DNA of 53,286 nucleotides from a virus. The translations under genes and the position numbers were made by a program. Shown here one piece after another: positions 19,881 to 29,817 of the stretch. The stretch is from the IMG/VR virus record IMGVR_UViG_3300009159_000088, positions 1-53,286 of that record. One strand, 5' to 3'. Positions within the stretch are counted from its first letter, which is position 1, and the number at the start of each line of letters is the position of its first letter. Under the pieces are notes generated by a model that saw only the letters and a program-made list of their open reading frames with translations, was not told where the DNA came from and searched no databases.

Positions 19881-19910
19881 GAGGGTCCTCGAAAGGGGAC
19901 CCTCTTTTTT
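19881..19910 (+). terminator. Rho-independent terminator after gp32
   Basis: GAGGGTCC (19881-19888) pairs with GGACCCTC (19897-19904), followed by six T. It ends the 33/59/32 transcript at the point where it meets the minus-strand tail genes. Confidence 0.92.
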
Positions 19911-22551
19911 AGTAAAATTGTGGAGTCAACATCCAGGAGGTACGGTCGGGAATGTTGTTCGAATTATATGTAACAGATTTATTGTCGTTGTTGATGGTTC
20001 GGCTTGAAGAACCACCACCTCCACCACCCGAAGATGCACTAATCATTGCTGCATTTGCTGCATTTGTGTAAGCGTCTTCGGTACGAGCAGTATCGGTTTC
20101 AAGTGCATTCATTTCGGCGCCAACAATCGGCGAATCACTTCGTTCAAGTTGCGCTGTTCTGGCATAAGTGTTAAGCAACTCTTCATCGGAGTTTAACACA
20201 GCTTTTTGTGTTTCATCGAGCAACGCCGTCTGCTCGTATGCGTCTAACATATCAGCATCCGTCACTCTTGTCGATCTAAGAGGTGATTCTTCAGCAATCG
20301 TATTAACCGCAGACTTTAGTCCATCGAGAGATTTAAGACCAAATGGATCTTCAGATGCACCTAATGGAGCAGCAGTAATTTTACTTGGTTTAAGTCCTAA
20401 TGGATCTTCAGATGCACCTAATGGAGCAGCAGTAATCGGCGAAGACTCACCGGCTGCACCTGCTGCACCTGCTGCACCTGCTGCACCACTGCTTCCGCTT
20501 GAAGGCAGACCAAGTAGATCGAGCGCCTTCTTTGTAAGATCGAATCCAAATAATCCTGAGATTGCATTTAACGGAGATAAAAGCGTTTTAACTAAACCAC
20601 CCATAACATCTAAAAATATGGATTTAAGATCCTTTTCTCCGCTAAAAAGGTCTTTTAGCCCGTAGAATATTGAACTAATAAAGGCGAATTGATCCGTAAA
20701 AAATGTTACAACAGTATCGATTACTCCATTAATTGCATTCTTGATAATATCAGTGAAACTAAAACTATCCAAAGCTGCAGCAATACCGTCGAAACCTAAT
20801 GCTCCCGCGATCCATGAAACTCCGCCCTTCAGCATATTAAGGAGTCCTCCAATAAGACCGTCAACTAGGTTTGAAAGCCCATTTTTAAGCCCTCCTATAA
20901 TTTTATCAATAAAACTGCCTTCAGTTTTCTGAAAACCATCGATAAACCCCGTAACTAAATCAAATAAACCAATGATTGCGGTAATTGGCCAAGCTATTTT
21001 GCCAAGAATACTACCAAATGCACCGGCAAATTTACCAAAGATACCACTAACATTTCCGAGTGCCTTAAATATGCCTCCGGCTGCTTTCATTACAAAACCC
21101 AGCCCAATACCTATTTTATCAACGATGTCGCCAAAATTAAAACTGTCAAGCATTTTTTCTAAATCTTTAAAACCCAATGCTCCGGCAGCCCATGAAACAA
21201 TACTCTTCATGATATTAAAGATACCACCAATAAGACCATCAAGGAATTTTTTAACACCGCCTCTGAGCCCTCCCAAAAGTTTATCTATGAAATTGCCTTC
21301 AGTTTTTGCAAAACCATCAATGAAGCCAGTAATCGAATCGAATATACCCATGATCACCTGAAACGGAACATTTAATTTACCAATAAACGAACCTAATGCT
21401 TTACCAAATCTAAACATTACAGCTGTAACAAGTTTCATTTTACCGAAAAAAGAACTAATACCTTTAAAAGAATTAATTAATTTTCCTACAATACTAGTAG
21501 ATTCAGTACCGATAGATAATACTCTTTTTATAAGATTGAATTTTTTTATGACCGGCTCAAATGCTTCGGAAATACCCTTTCCTAAATTCGTAAAACCTTG
21601 AAACAATTCTGTAATGTAACCAATCAATGCAGATCGTTTTATTATTTGATACAATGCTCTAACCTTAGAACCAAAACGCTCAACAATTCCAATTATATCA
21701 TCGAATGATTTAGTTATAAACGTACCAAATTTTGATTGTTTAATTGTTTGATACAATGCTTTAGTTTTAGAAGAAAGACGTTCTCCAATTTCAACAATAC
21801 TTTTAAATGCTTTTGTTATTTCAGCAACAAACTTTGAACCTTTAATTTTTGCTAGTAATGGACGAAAGTCTAAAAGTTTAGTGAGGCTTTTGAATACCTC
21901 TTTGGCTTGGATTGCCAATTCTGCAACAAAGCTTGTAACAAAACCCAATAGAGCTGCACCCACCGCAACCGCCCATGCACCCCAACTCATTTCTGGTTTT
22001 TCCGGTTTTTCGTTCTTTTCCTCCTCTTCTTTTTTCTTGTTTTCTAGAGCCTCTCGAATTTTTTCAAATATTTCAAGCATCTCCTTGTTATTTTCTAAAT
22101 CTTTCAGAGAACTACCTCTGTTTGCGGCATCAACTAAGGAGCCAACGCGTACCATAATTTCTTCATTTGAAATTTCAATATTCTTCAAATATTCTTCAAT
22201 TGCAATTAAACTAATACCATTTGATTCTGCATAATTTGAAATAAAGGATAACCCAGCCACAATTTCCTTATCGTTTGCTGTAGGTTTTTGCGATCCTTTT
22301 TTAGGCGTGTTCGCAAGAATCTTAGTTAAACAATTCAAGCTTTTTTCCGAATTATTTACCAACTCATTTAAACGAGCAACCATTTCACTATTCTGTGTTT
22401 TATTGGCATCGCTGCTTGCTGTCGTAGCTTGTTCAGTAATAAGCAACGACTTTTGGATACCTTCAAGCTGAAATACTTGGTTAAAACTACCTTTGTTCGA
22501 AATTTGAAGTTCCGATAAAATATCTTGAAATGTTTTGTCTTTTTCAGGCAT
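19909..22551 (-). CDS. Tail tape-measure / hub-rod protein (gp29-position)
   Basis: An 880-residue protein with a helical N-terminal third, Gly-rich hydrophobic helices in the middle, and a Ser/Ala/Gly-rich C-terminal region. Two tandem copies of about 90 residues (near 395-485 and 522-612) share F-D-x-(V/I)-T-G-F-I-D-G-F, K-T-E-G-(N/S)-F-I-D-K, W-(A/I)-A-G-A-L-G-F and L-D-S-F-(N/S)-F motifs, with a spacing of about 127 residues. Length, repeats and hydrophobic segments are typical of tape-measure proteins, and it lies directly after the gp26/gp51 pair, where tail chaperones sit in other tailed phages. In T4 this role belongs to gp29 (590 aa); sequence similarity to it is not obvious to me. 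Confidence 0.7.
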   Translation of the reverse strand: MPEKDKTFQDILSELQISNKGSFNQVFQLEGIQKSLLITEQATTASSDANKTQNSEMVARLNELVNNSEKSLNCLTKILANTPKKGSQKPTANDKEIVAGLSFISNYAESNGISLIAIEEYLKNIEISNEEIMVRVGSLVDAANRGSSLKDLENNKEMLEIFEKIREALENKKKEEEEKNEKPEKPEMSWGAWAVAVGAALLGFVTSFVAELAIQAKEVFKSLTKLLDFRPLLAKIKGSKFVAEITKAFKSIVEIGERLSSKTKALYQTIKQSKFGTFITKSFDDIIGIVERFGSKVRALYQIIKRSALIGYITELFQGFTNLGKGISEAFEPVIKKFNLIKRVLSIGTESTSIVGKLINSFKGISSFFGKMKLVTAVMFRFGKALGSFIGKLNVPFQVIMGIFDSITGFIDGFAKTEGNFIDKLLGGLRGGVKKFLDGLIGGIFNIMKSIVSWAAGALGFKDLEKMLDSFNFGDIVDKIGIGLGFVMKAAGGIFKALGNVSGIFGKFAGAFGSILGKIAWPITAIIGLFDLVTGFIDGFQKTEGSFIDKIIGGLKNGLSNLVDGLIGGLLNMLKGGVSWIAGALGFDGIAAALDSFSFTDIIKNAINGVIDTVVTFFTDQFAFISSIFYGLKDLFSGEKDLKSIFLDVMGGLVKTLLSPLNAISGLFGFDLTKKALDLLGLPSSGSSGAAGAAGAAGAAGESSPITAAPLGASEDPLGLKPSKITAAPLGASEDPFGLKSLDGLKSAVNTIAEESPLRSTRVTDADMLDAYEQTALLDETQKAVLNSDEELLNTYARTAQLERSDSPIVGAEMNALETDTARTEDAYTNAANAAMISASSGGGGGGSSSRTINNDNKSVTYNSNNIPDRTSWMLTPQFY

Positions 22552-22557
22552 GGTCGT

Positions 22558-22692
22558 TTATTTTTGAAATTTCTTCTTGGCTCTTTCGTTTTCTTCTTTA
22601 ATATGGTCAACTAAAAGAGAAACGTATATCTCCCTCTCCCATGGCATCATGCTATCAAGTTCTGTTAGACTGTATTTGTGATGCTGCATCAT
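22558..22692 (-). CDS. 51: gp51-type baseplate hub assembly factor
   Basis: A 44-residue reading frame beginning MMQHHKYSLTELDSMMPWER. It matches the conserved C-terminal part of gp51-like proteins of T4-type phages as I recall them (QHHKYS..ELD.M.PWERE.Y). The same frame is open upstream, without a stop, to the T-run at the end of gp26, so it may be made mainly as a -1 frameshift extension of gp26 (297 aa in total) rather than from the ATG at 22692. It ends 6 bases before the tape-measure start. Confidence 0.7.
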   Translation of the reverse strand: MMQHHKYSLTELDSMMPWEREIYVSLLVDHIKEENERAKKKFQK

Positions 22693-22742
22693 TGCAAAAT
22701 TTGTTTGGTAATGATTCACGAGTGTATCATGCGAGAGGGCTA

Positions 22743-23450
22743 TTAGAAAAAATTCTGGAGTCCTTTTAGAACAACTTTGTTATCTTTCTGGCAATGCTTG
22801 CATGTAAAGGATATTTCCTTTTCAAGTTTTGGCATTTTTTCGATAAACTCTTGGATCTGTTGGAATTGTAACTGATTCAATGATTCAATGAATTCTAACA
22901 TTTCTTCTTGCGATTGCTCTGATGCTGGATAAATCTTTTTTTCATCAAAAATTGCTTCGATGCAATGAACCACAACATCGAATGCTGCGGATTTCTGATC
23001 GGTTTTTGACTTGGCTCCCATGTCGGTTACGAATTCAACGCTTGGCCAGCGCATAATCACTCCGATTTTATCGCTCAGTTTAATCTTGTTCGATGGTTTT
23101 TCTTCAACATCCATTTTAATGTCGTCGATGTTTACCTCGCAGGATGTTGTTTTTTCACAACTTGAGCATTTAACACCGATCTTTGCAATTTCGCCAACAG
23201 ACTTGGCTCTTAGTTTCAGAAAGATGTATTCCAGATCAAAAATAGCCAATGAATTTGGATCAATTTTATTAAATGTGCAGGAAGCAACAGTATCTTTCAT
23301 TGCCTGCATGATCTGCTTCTGGTCTTCAGATTCGATTGCAATCATTAAAAGTTTTTCTTCTTTTACGAGGTAGGGACGATATGTTAACTTTTTTCCGGTA
23401 GACGGAAGAGTCATTTCATATTTCGGTGTTTCTAGGATTGGTAGTGGCAT
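22743..23450 (-). CDS. 26: Baseplate hub assembly protein gp26
   Basis: A 235-residue protein matching gp26 of T4-like phages: MPLPILETPKYEMTLPSTGK at the start, then a Zn-ribbon made of two CxxC pairs (KCSSCEKT in the middle and TCKHCQKD near the C-terminus) flanking helical regions. gp26 is needed for assembly of the T4 baseplate hub. Its stop codon directly follows a slippery T-run, which allows an extension into gp51, in the way gpG/gpGT tail chaperones are made in other phages. That parallel is inference. Confidence 0.85.
   Translation of the reverse strand: MPLPILETPKYEMTLPSTGKKLTYRPYLVKEEKLLMIAIESEDQKQIMQAMKDTVASCTFNKIDPNSLAIFDLEYIFLKLRAKSVGEIAKIGVKCSSCEKTTSCEVNIDDIKMDVEEKPSNKIKLSDKIGVIMRWPSVEFVTDMGAKSKTDQKSAAFDVVVHCIEAIFDEKKIYPASEQSQEEMLEFIESLNQLQFQQIQEFIEKMPKLEKEISFTCKHCQKDNKVVLKGLQNFF
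22746..22752 (-). promoter_or_regulatory. Programmed -1 frameshift site, U UUU UUC
   Basis: Read on the minus strand in the gp26 frame, AAT TTT TTC is followed at once by the TAA stop. The heptamer T TTT TTC is a classical -1 slippery sequence. A shift there continues into 18 further codons and then the gp51 frame without interruption. Confidence 0.65.
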
Positions 23451-23494: not shown

Positions 23495-24067
23495 TTATTC
23501 TTCGAGCGGCTTCGCGTTCGAAAGTGACTCGGGAGCTGGTTTATAATTTAGTGGCAAGACGAAGAAATCTTCGTATGCCATTGATACTGCAAATCGTTGA
23601 ACTGTATTTTCTGAATTATTGTCTAAAGGAATACTATTTAGTGACGTTGGAAATGCATTCATTAGTTCCACGCCGTAAACCTTATTTTCATGTTTGTCTA
23701 ACTGATATATTTGAATCGTACCTTTGTAATCTTCAAGATAATTTGCTCGATAATTGTCAAAATTAATCACCGATGTCGACCAAGAATCGAATATCTTTTT
23801 AACATAAAAATCATTGGTCAATAAAAACGAAAAAGCGACTTCTTCGTTTATGTAGCCATTCGGAACCTTGATTGATTGGCGCAATAGTTGATAGTCAAAG
23901 GTTGTAATTTGTCTACCCGGAAGAGTACAATTTTCACATAGAATGTTAAAATCCGATCCATTCACTGAAATTTTTTGCGGAGGAGTAATTCGCACTAAGA
24001 ATCTGTTTTGATGAGCAAGACCCGATCGTCTATTTACTAAACCTTTAAGTTCTTGGATATTTGACAT
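23495..24067 (-). CDS. Tail-tube-fold protein (gp19/gp54-like)
   Basis: A 190-residue protein with the tail-tube pattern: an N-terminal RFLVRITPP strand, CENCTLPGRQITTFDYQL, VAFSFLLTNDFYVKKIFDSW, YKGTIQIYQLD, YGVELMNAFPTSLNSIPLD and a final VQRFAVSMAYEDFF. T4 gp19 shares this order of features. It could be the tube subunit, or more likely, from its place in the baseplate cluster, the tube-initiator equivalent of gp54. It is translated from the minus-strand message that also carries gp26 and the tape-measure protein. Confidence 0.75.
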   Translation of the reverse strand: MSNIQELKGLVNRRSGLAHQNRFLVRITPPQKISVNGSDFNILCENCTLPGRQITTFDYQLLRQSIKVPNGYINEEVAFSFLLTNDFYVKKIFDSWSTSVINFDNYRANYLEDYKGTIQIYQLDKHENKVYGVELMNAFPTSLNSIPLDNNSENTVQRFAVSMAYEDFFVLPLNYKPAPESLSNAKPLEE

Positions 24068-27042: not shown

Positions 27043-28426
27043 TAATAACATAAGTGTTCTTTCTGGTACGTCCGAGTCGGAATTGCCTACACGCTATTCG
27101 TTGCAGGCCGTTGTACTGTCGAATCATAAGGGCGATAAGGTCGACATAAAAACCTTTGTTACAGACTTTACAATCACAGAAAGTATCTATCGCACCTCCT
27201 TAATTTTAAATCTAAACGTCAAAGACACAGTTAACATTATTGAAGAATATAAACTCACGGGGCAAGAAGTAATTAATGTGGTCATTGCTCGTAAAGATTA
27301 TGGTTCCACGGATGAGCAAATTATTAATTTAGATTTTCTTATTTCAGAATACCCGTTGTTGGGTAAATTAACCAATCGTCTACAAGTCTTTAGTATTTCT
27401 GCAATTTCACCTTATGCTTTTTTATCTAAATTAAAACGCATCTCTCGTGCATACTCTGGAACTCTTGGAGAATTTATAAAGAGTGTTTTAGAAAAGGATT
27501 TAAATGTCGATCCTAAAAAAATCATTCTTTCGAAATCAGTAACTCCTTCTTGCAAGTTTATCGTTCCTAATTTAGCACCACTGGACGCAATTTCTTGGGC
27601 ACTTAGAAGGTCCTATGATCAAAACGGTAGTCCTTTTTACTGTTATCAAACCTTAAACGGTGACATTCATATTGCTTCTCAAGGAGATATGGTAACAAAA
27701 GAAACCTACAAACAGTTTGATGAAGGTAAGTTTTTTAAATCAACTCGAGCAACCGAAGCCGATAAGATAGCCGATTACAAGGAAAGAGCGAGAAGAATTT
27801 TAAGTATTACATCTGATTTTCGTATGTCGAAGTATCTTGCTGGTGCGAATGGAGCATACGCATCAACCACTAATTATTTGGATCTTTCGACGAAAACAAT
27901 GTCGCGTAACATTTTTCATTATGAAAGGGATTTTAAAAAAATGACCTTCATTGAAAAGAATAATGTTATATCGCCGTTTTTTCATCCTGAAAAGGATAAT
28001 TTAAAGGATACAATGTCGAATTATCCAGACTCAAATGTTAATTTTATATCGACAAATTCTAAAGCATTTAATGGTAATAAAAAAAATTATCATTCTCCGA
28101 CTTTAAATGGTGCAATTAATAAGGCTCAAGCTCATACAGAAAATTTAGACACCTTAATTCATGATGTTTCTTTATGCGGAGATTTTAAAGTAAATTCCGG
28201 TGTTATGGTCGATTTAAAACTTTCTCCCTCGATCGATCCTCAGGTTGGTGTAAAAACAGGAGAAAGTGAAGGAGATGTCATTAAAGACCAATTCTTTTCC
28301 GGCAGATACCTTGTAACGGCGGCAGTGCATAAATTTGAATATGAATACACTGTGGATATAAAATTGAAAAAAGATTCTCTTCCATTTACATTCGTGAAAA
28401 GCCCGACTTCAGGAAAAACTATATGA
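27035..28426 (+). CDS. 27: Baseplate hub gp27
   Basis: A 463-residue protein with the gp27/VgrG-type pattern: VVLSNHKGDKVDIKTFVTDF and TITESIYRTSLILNLNVKD at the start, FLISEYPLLGKLTNRLQVF, a helical insert (TLGEFIKSVLEKDLNVDPKK), then PLDAISWALRRSYDQNGSPF and a final FSGRYLVTAAVHKFEYEY. In T4 a gp27 trimer forms the torus that holds the gp5 spike. It is longer than T4 gp27 (391 aa). gp5 follows, overlapping by 4 bases. Confidence 0.85.
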   Translation: MLNNNISVLSGTSESELPTRYSLQAVVLSNHKGDKVDIKTFVTDFTITESIYRTSLILNLNVKDTVNIIEEYKLTGQEVINVVIARKDYGSTDEQIINLDFLISEYPLLGKLTNRLQVFSISAISPYAFLSKLKRISRAYSGTLGEFIKSVLEKDLNVDPKKIILSKSVTPSCKFIVPNLAPLDAISWALRRSYDQNGSPFYCYQTLNGDIHIASQGDMVTKETYKQFDEGKFFKSTRATEADKIADYKERARRILSITSDFRMSKYLAGANGAYASTTNYLDLSTKTMSRNIFHYERDFKKMTFIEKNNVISPFFHPEKDNLKDTMSNYPDSNVNFISTNSKAFNGNKKNYHSPTLNGAINKAQAHTENLDTLIHDVSLCGDFKVNSGVMVDLKLSPSIDPQVGVKTGESEGDVIKDQFFSGRYLVTAAVHKFEYEYTVDIKLKKDSLPFTFVKSPTSGKTI

Positions 28427-29817
28427 TAAACAACGTTGATCAATTTATTGGAAGTAATTTTTGCTGGTTTACTGGCGTCGTCGAAGATGTTCTGGATCCT
28501 ATGCAAATGGGACGCGTTAGGGTTCGTTGTTATGGTTATCACACGGATGATAAAGAACAAATCCCTACTGAATCTTTGCCATGGGCCTTTGTGATGACTC
28601 CTGTTACCTCTGCCGGAATGAGTGGCATTGGACAATCTGCGACCGGATTGCTTCAAGGGTCTTGGGTTGTCGGTTTTTTTAGAGATGGTCGTTCGGCCCA
28701 GGATCCAATTATAATGGGAACAATTCCGTCCATAACTACGGGCGGAGATAAATCAAAGGGGTTTTCCGATCCAAGCGGTAAACATCCAAGAAAATCATCT
28801 TCCGTTGATCTTCCTATTGAATCGAGAAGCGATTACTTTAATTCAACAGCATACGTAGCCAGAGAACAACTAAGACAAGAAAACGTTGAAACAGCGATTC
28901 CTGGTGAATTAGTATCTGTTGCCATATCGGAACCAAGCACTTATTACAAACGGAATACATGGAGTAACTTAAAAACTGGAGACGTAGTAAATCCAATTTA
29001 TCCCAACAACCACTCAATTCATAGCGAATCTGGGCACGTAAAGGAAATGGATGATACTCCAGGTGCGGAAAGACTTTTTGAAATGCATAAGTCTGGAACC
29101 TATTGTGAAATTAATAACAAAGGAGATAAGACGACGACGATTGTGGGTAATAATTACACAGTGATCATCGGCGGAGATAACATCTACATCAAGGGATCCG
29201 CAAATCTAACAGTCGATGGCGATTTTAGACATCTTGTAAAGGGTAACTATCACCTCGAGGTCGAAGGCAATAAGACCGAATACGTTAAAGGATCTCGCCA
29301 ATCAAAGATCGGTAAGTCGGAACAGATTGAAATTGGTCAAGAGTTTGCGGCAAACATAAAATCTAATTCAGTTTTACGTGTCGGCAGAGATTCAACCATT
29401 CTCGTCAACGGTAACAAAAATGAAACCATTGCCGAGAACAACGATCTTTTTGTTAATAAAAATGACGGTCATATCGTTTTAGGTAAGCGCAATGAATTTA
29501 CCGGCGATAATAATAGTTCGACGACGAACGGTCTGTTGTTTTTAACTGGTAAGCAAATTAAAATTGAATCTCCTGAAACACTTGTAACAAACATTGATGG
29601 CGCCGTAACTGAAACATTTGGATCGACGCACGCACTTACTGTAAGCGGCGAACAAACAATTACTGCATCGAAGACATTCGTTAGAAATAATGTAGATGTA
29701 ACTGGTACTCTAACGGCAACAACTCAAGTAACCGCGGGTACACCGGCGATTTCGCTTACAACGCATTTACACAGACCCGGCGGCTTAATAGTTACTGGAC
29801 CACCGAGTGTTTCTTAA
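28423..29817 (+). CDS. 5: Central spike gp5, without lysozyme domain, with HxH apex
   Basis: A 464-residue protein. Residues 1-125 form an OB-fold (FTGVVEDVLDPMQMGRVRVR, then WVVGFFRDGRSAQDPIIMGT), followed by a linker and a long beta-helix with repeated polar/hydrophobic strands (residues about 215-430). No T4-type lysozyme domain lies between them. The C-terminus has a THLHRPGG motif; H448 and H450 match the HxH iron site at the tip of P2 gpV-type spikes, so the apex is probably built in. It forms the membrane-piercing needle on gp27. Confidence 0.88.
   Translation: MINNVDQFIGSNFCWFTGVVEDVLDPMQMGRVRVRCYGYHTDDKEQIPTESLPWAFVMTPVTSAGMSGIGQSATGLLQGSWVVGFFRDGRSAQDPIIMGTIPSITTGGDKSKGFSDPSGKHPRKSSSVDLPIESRSDYFNSTAYVAREQLRQENVETAIPGELVSVAISEPSTYYKRNTWSNLKTGDVVNPIYPNNHSIHSESGHVKEMDDTPGAERLFEMHKSGTYCEINNKGDKTTTIVGNNYTVIIGGDNIYIKGSANLTVDGDFRHLVKGNYHLEVEGNKTEYVKGSRQSKIGKSEQIEIGQEFAANIKSNSVLRVGRDSTILVNGNKNETIAENNDLFVNKNDGHIVLGKRNEFTGDNNSSTTNGLLFLTGKQIKIESPETLVTNIDGAVTETFGSTHALTVSGEQTITASKTFVRNNVDVTGTLTATTQVTAGTPAISLTTHLHRPGGLIVTGPPSVS

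Follow-up and report, generated by a model that had tools for sequence, protein, structure and literature searches.

Comparative evidence for a probable -1 ribosomal frameshift by which a single gene of a T4-like phage would specify short and long tail chaperones

Introduction

In the 53,286 nucleotide stretch of viral DNA analysed here (hereafter the window, a 53-kb IMG/VR record), a gene resembling T4 gene 26 terminates in a run of T residues, and an ORF of 44 codons, of the kind annotated as gp51 in related phages, lies in a different frame just beyond. This arrangement raises the question of whether the locus holds two genes or a single gene that is read in two ways. An earlier note on this DNA, made from the letters alone, favoured the second possibility and proposed that a -1 shift on the T-run carries gp26 into the gp51 frame, yielding a pair of tail chaperones of the gpG and gpGT type. 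Herein we follow up that proposal by comparing the locus with its relatives, with T4 genes 26 and 51, and with frameshift sites from other phages.

Results

The gp26-like gene meets an open -1 frame at a slippery site

The features of the locus are collected in Table 1; all lie on the minus strand, which the earlier note did not state. The gp26-like gene closes with CAG AAT TTT TTC TAA TAG, specifying LQNFF and a stop, and between 22779 and 22558 the -1 frame is uninterrupted from one stop to the next. The extension gained after a slip comprises 62 residues (LIALSHDTLVNHYQ...KKKFQK), giving a fusion of 235 + 62 = 297 aa, and the ATG at 22692 that opens the 44-codon ORF is found 18 codons into it. 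The end of gp26 as read in the earlier note (AAT TTT TTC TAA), the distance of 18 codons and the length of the fusion are therefore all correct. The 235-aa protein matched PF12322 ('T4 bacteriophage base plate protein') with an E-value of 1.2e-62 (211.9 bits, cut-off 24.5) and PHROG 150 at 6.5e-65, whilst the extension matched PHROG 634, described as 'baseplate hub assembly catalyst' (gp51), at 1e-28. In the window record, which may be a fragment, the gp26 protein has a single match, and the gp51 part is read at -1 to it; the T4-type organisation of two separate paralogous genes, one short and one long, was not observed within these possibly incomplete 53 kb.

Table 1. Features of the gp26/gp51 locus and its neighbours in the window
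Feature	Position	Strand	Remarks
Preceding gene, tail tube / tube initiator-like protein	23495..24067	minus	phrog_45 tail tube 2.3e-33
gp26-like gene	23450..22743	minus	235 codons + TAA; PF12322 and phrog_150 matches
SD-like AAAGGA, 8 nt 5' of heptamer	22761..22766	minus	stimulatory role uncertain
Slippery heptamer T_TTT_TTC	22752..22746	minus	0-frame codons AAT TTT TTC; read from sequence
Tandem 0-frame stops TAA TAG	22740..22745	minus	directly 3' of heptamer
-1 frame extension, C-terminal (T / gp51) domain of putative long form	22558..22746	minus	62 codons + stop
44-codon 'gp51' ORF, ATG ATG start	22558..22692	minus	annotated thus in relatives
Next gene, 880 aa, probable tape-measure protein	19909..22551	minus	weak profile matches + position

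The earlier note had placed the fusion just upstream of the tape-measure gene. A gene of 880 aa does indeed follow directly, and it probably encodes the tape measure, as judged from gene order and weak profile matches (phrog_58, 0.0012; phrog_1535, 0.0027). Within this gene we observed an Ala/Gly-rich tandem repeat with a period of 9 (20400-20490), followed by two near-copies of ITAAPLGASEDPxGLK. Elsewhere in the window, a gp5-like hub protein of 464 aa (28423-29817) gave matches to the OB and C-terminal trimer domains, with none to a lysozyme domain in between.

The T-run and its codon phase are conserved

IMG/VR was scanned with the extension, yielding 80 loci of 62-100 % identity. Together with the window these form the comparison set (n=81), in which 60 representatives are less than 70 % identical (mean 44 %); for one locus, L051, gp26 was found only with a looser threshold. 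Conservation of the T-run in related phages, which the earlier note had named as a check on its proposal, was complete: all 81 sequences carry six T residues near the end of gp26 in the phase NNT_TTT_TTN, and in all 81 the gp51 domain is offset from gp26 by -1. The gp26 stop is located 0-9 codons 3' of the heptamer in every case, and directly after it in 20. By contrast with the T residues, the last base of the heptamer is variable (C in 46, T in 22, A in 12 and G in one), and through it Phe is changed to Leu in 13 of the 81 sequences; as such, the T residues are kept beyond what the amino acids require. A null expectation was derived from how these gp26 genes use their codons: TTT makes up 75 % of Phe codons, and 75 % of AAY/GAY/AGY codons end in T. 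Both synonymous positions would then hold a T with a probability of 0.56 per sequence, or about 8e-16 for the 60 representatives if these are independent, a figure that is optimistic as they share ancestry, though their divergence is large. The phased run of six T residues is more than chance.

The same break in frame recurs in the 80 other contigs and in isolate genomes of several families. This refutes the idea that one in-frame gene was split by a sequencing or assembly error, an explanation that the single in-frame ORF of gene 51 in T4-type phages might invite and to which we now assign practically no weight. The fusion might also result from slippage of RNA polymerase, rather than of the ribosome, as the run is homopolymeric, with six T residues in the window and up to eight in relatives. 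Slippage during transcription would not need a codon phase, yet the phase is the same in 81/81 sequences; furthermore, runs of 6-8 are below the length that is usually needed by polymerases. We thus consider a transcriptional origin of the fusion extremely improbable.

The -1 frame is constrained ahead of the usual first gp51 ATG

The arrangement could alternatively represent a separate small gp51 gene, with the T-run being incidental, that is translated from its own ATG (22692 in the window) or by reinitiation after the gp26 stop. Database records do give gp26 and gp51 a CDS each (e.g. Mosig, P-SSM2, P-HM1 and phiM7), and in some Ackermannviridae the equivalent ORF can start at an ATG overlapping the gp26 stop (see below). 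The first ATG of the gp51 frame is located 18 or 19 codons past the heptamer in 75 of the 81 sequences. Over codons 2-17, from the heptamer to this usual first ATG, the ratio of nonsynonymous to synonymous change was 0.105 in the -1 frame; the gp26 frame gave 1.54 and the third frame 3.05. The -1 frame is thus under purifying selection from the slippery site on, and residues conserved in this interval include LSHDSL and NF.

Signals for independent initiation were likewise scarce. A Shine-Dalgarno (SD)-like 4-mer was found before the first possible start of the gp51 frame in none of the 81 sequences and before the first ATG in one. By comparison, one precedes 67 of 78 starts of gp26 and 49 of 77 starts of the next gene. 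In the window itself, there is no SD-like site upstream of the 44-codon ORF and no start codon overlapping the gp26 stop; as the window's gp26 and next-gene starts also have no obvious SD by eye, the missing site at the gp51 ATG is informative in the relatives and not in the window. Moreover, in T4 the two parts are covalently joined. With protein constraint beginning at the heptamer and an SD-like site before the gp51 ATG in one sequence of 81, a separate gp51 gene is very unlikely in the window's clade, and the 44-codon 'gp51' ORF probably does not stand as a gene of its own; for the locus in question, we regard two separately initiated genes with an incidental T-run as quite improbable. The contrary case named in the earlier note, relatives that lack the run and instead have a gp51 start and leader of their own, was not found among the 80 relatives.

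Candidate stimulators of slippage

RNA downstream of the heptamer folds more strongly than shuffled sequences (mean z about -1.6), and strong stems are present in some relatives (L010, L040, L044, L058 and L061). For the best candidate stem, covariation among the relatives is not consistent, its key pair forms in only 15 of the 60 representatives, and the stem of the window is weak; a conserved downstream hairpin was therefore rejected as a stimulator. On the upstream side, SD-like 4-mers peak 12-15 nt 5' of the T-run in relatives. The position of this stretch resembles that at other frameshift sites, and GAG is preferred to GAA at one codon (p 2e-5). Nevertheless, such motifs occur in 48 of the 60 representatives where 47.6 are expected under a synonymous-codon null, and an upstream SD-like stimulator was rejected as well. 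The stretch 8 nt upstream in the window is thus explained by codon choice, and any stimulatory role for it is uncertain.

The putative fusion is collinear with T4 gp51

In T4 (NC_000866), the products of genes 26 and 51 have 208 and 249 aa, respectively, and the two genes are found on opposite strands. PF12322 matches both products (8.8e-64 in gp26 and 3.9e-52 in gp51), whilst the PHROG 634 part continues, in frame, in gp51 alone. The same pattern was observed in Phi1, and the in-frame gp51 proteins of Thanatos-2 and Aes012 likewise have both matches. T4 gp26 and gp51 are paralogues. In profile comparisons, window-type gp26 covers columns 14-200 of T4-type gp51 (97.6 %, E 4e-12), and in hhalign the -1 extension of the same type falls on columns 200-247 (92 % probability, E 6e-7), such that the two aligned pieces join at the slippery site. 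As these columns adjoin, the predicted fusion would be the counterpart of full T4 gp51, and gp26 that of T4 gp26. The suggestion in the earlier note that gp26 and gp51 are T4-type equivalents consequently holds for gp26; for gp51 it does not hold for the 44-codon ORF by itself, as T4 gp51 combines a gp26-type domain and the C-terminal part within one in-frame ORF, and by these alignments its true equivalent is the whole 297-aa fusion. T4 gp51 is not present in the virion (PMC3004832).

In a tree of the family, T4-type gp26 and gp51 are sister groups (94/79), and the pair adjoins Straboviridae of the frameshift type (ValKK3, D481, Aeh1 and AS-zj). The window groups with the pelagiphage Mosig and the Methylophilales phage Melnitz (100/97). 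Deeper forks are moderately supported, and the placement of the Campylobacter phages is unsafe owing to long branches. Read most simply, this tree has the single frameshifting gene as the older state and the T4 pair as the result of duplication, which suggests that the pair arose inside the Straboviridae from a frameshifting ancestor.

Predicted fold of gp26

An AlphaFold2 model of the window gp26 had a mean pLDDT of 88. Foldseek returned no significant match in the PDB, the row of highest probability (0.44, E 1.4) being the HK97 tail assembly chaperone 2ob9. Upon structural realignment, the top four chains were 3fgx (Z 7.8), 2ob9 (7.8), 3klu (7.0) and 5ir0 (5.3), with the next row at 2.8, and all four align within gp26 residues 1-95; 3klu is the Bacillus protein YqbN, which we take to be prophage-encoded. 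For 2ob9, residues 1-90 of the model superimposed at 3.9 A over 83 residues, although Z values below 8 can be coincidental. The resemblance of the predicted N-terminal domain to the HK97 chaperone (HK97 gp13) is as such supporting, and not decisive. For T4 gp51, no solved structure was found by sequence, and a T4-type gp51 model had no significant Foldseek match in the PDB.

Other phages and other layouts

The layout of the window recurs in isolates: T_TTT_TT followed by C, T or G, with the gp51 part in the -1 frame, was identified in P-SSM2, P-HM1, Mosig, Melnitz, S-N03, ValKK3 and D481, and likewise in Aeh1, AS-zj, Sinorhizobium phiM7, Stenotrophomonas BUCT608 and Rhizobium RHph_Y68. The joined product is annotated in none of the isolate records examined, and several start gp51 at an internal ATG.

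Three groups of phages were organized differently. In Ackermannviridae (L111-L128, junction near locus position 1490-1510), a gp51-type domain follows a gp26-like gene in the -1 frame, and the site reads GAR ATT TTC ATY TAA, which is not a canonical heptamer. An ATG overlaps the stop in L125-L127 (TAATG) and TAATT is found in the others; reinitiation may yield the domain as a small protein (phrog_9633) that is not fused to gp26. In Thornevirus SP-15 and LIS04 (L096:2663-2922, L099:3148-3425), the C-terminal part is apparently +1 to the gp26-like gene, after GAR TTT TTT, which suggests a +1 or -2 shift in these phages of Gram-positive hosts. Finally, the Campylobacter phage CP220 (L103:1856-2590, L104:1833-2510) has two separate family members some 9 kb from each other, of which one carries a gp51-type C-terminus, and this duplication is probably independent of that in T4.

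Taken together, these layouts raise the possibility, to which we give slightly less than even credence, that the chaperone family has at least three and perhaps four routes to a short/long pair, with the T4 pair derived from a frameshifting ancestor. The routes would be -1 slippage on six T residues in the window clade and in Vibrio KVP40-type, Aeromonas Aeh1-type and rhizobial phages; gene duplication with in-frame fusion in the T4 clade and, probably separately, in the Campylobacter phages; a C-terminal part apparently in the +1 frame in Thornevirus; and possibly an unfused C-terminal part obtained through reinitiation at an overlapping stop and start in Ackermannviridae. If true, the family would represent a natural experiment in swapping a frameshift for a gene duplication.

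Discussion

We consider it highly likely that one gene of this T4-like contractile phage makes both a short and a long tail chaperone through a -1 ribosomal frameshift, as the earlier note had proposed. Comparative evidence supports this strongly; the frameshift signals and their conservation are observed, as are protein-level constraint in the -1 frame, collinearity of the two parts with T4 gp51 and a resemblance in predicted fold. As to mechanism, we infer slippage, its efficiency and the binding roles of the products. Most ribosomes would end at the TAA and produce the 235-aa short form (gp26, gpG-like or TAC-N). According to the standard model of tandem slippage, a fraction, with two tRNAs on the TTT and TTC of T_TTT_TTC, would slip back by one base; both tRNAs would then re-pair on TTT codons and translation would continue past TAA TAG, yielding a rarer, gpGT-like long form of 297 aa. 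A chaperone role is suggested by gene order, with a tail tube-like gene before and a probable tape measure after. Lambda gpG and gpGT both bind the tape measure, the T part being responsible for binding of the tail tube protein (PMC5009743); by analogy, the shared part would coat the tape-measure protein encoded next, and the 62 extra residues of the long form would recruit tail tube subunits.

Some six hundred phage records carry this locus, including those of cyanophages, pelagiphages, and Vibrio, Aeromonas and rhizobial phages, and in the isolate records examined annotation divides the predicted long chaperone form between gp26 and a small 'baseplate hub assembly catalyst'.

The lambda tail assembly frameshift was reportedly described by Xu, Hendrix and Duda in 2004, and PMC5009743 reviews it. 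As proposed for the window, gpG and gpGT of lambda are specified by a gene before the tape measure, with a -1 shift near its 3' end and a minor long form; the lambda heptamer, however, differs from that of the window, and our searches revealed no sequence relation between the two. A closer parallel for the site itself is the tail gene pair E and E+E' of P2, where a -1 shift occurs on TTTTTTG with no downstream hairpin (PMC3091744), so that in one known case a bare T-run is sufficient. P2 shares with the window the six T residues, a contractile tail, the lack of a clear downstream hairpin and the -1 shift that is predicted here, and differs in its TTTTTTG rather than TTTTTTC and in E being 91 aa, as opposed to a PF12322 protein of 235 aa. 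In Vandenendeviridae and Andersonviridae, there is again a conserved poly-T -1 site with a downstream ORF mis-annotated as a separate gene, although the motif is GTTTTT and the phage families are different (PMC12846349).

A 2016 review describes G-T frameshifting as widely conserved, with T4 as the exception (PMC5009743). The gp26 (short) and gp51 (long) proteins of T4-like phages belong to the same PF12322 family as the window's products, and form a short/long pair with a C-terminal extension as seen here; T4 employs two paralogous genes on opposite strands, whereas in the window one gene with a slippery site would serve for both. Tail assembly chaperones of T4-like phages were named by Vladimirov, Gautam and Davidson (2022), a study cited in both PMC10885494 and PMC12846349. 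From that work, the PRFect paper (PMC10885494) reports that a short gene occurs alongside a longer, fused one in some T4-like phages. In the Adele paper (PMC12846349), the same study is credited with poly-T signals for frameshifting in the TAC-N genes of T4-like phages. Judging from these citing papers, the idea of a frameshift is not new for T4-like phages, and the locus in the window is a well-supported new example of it, of a kind mis-annotated in databases.
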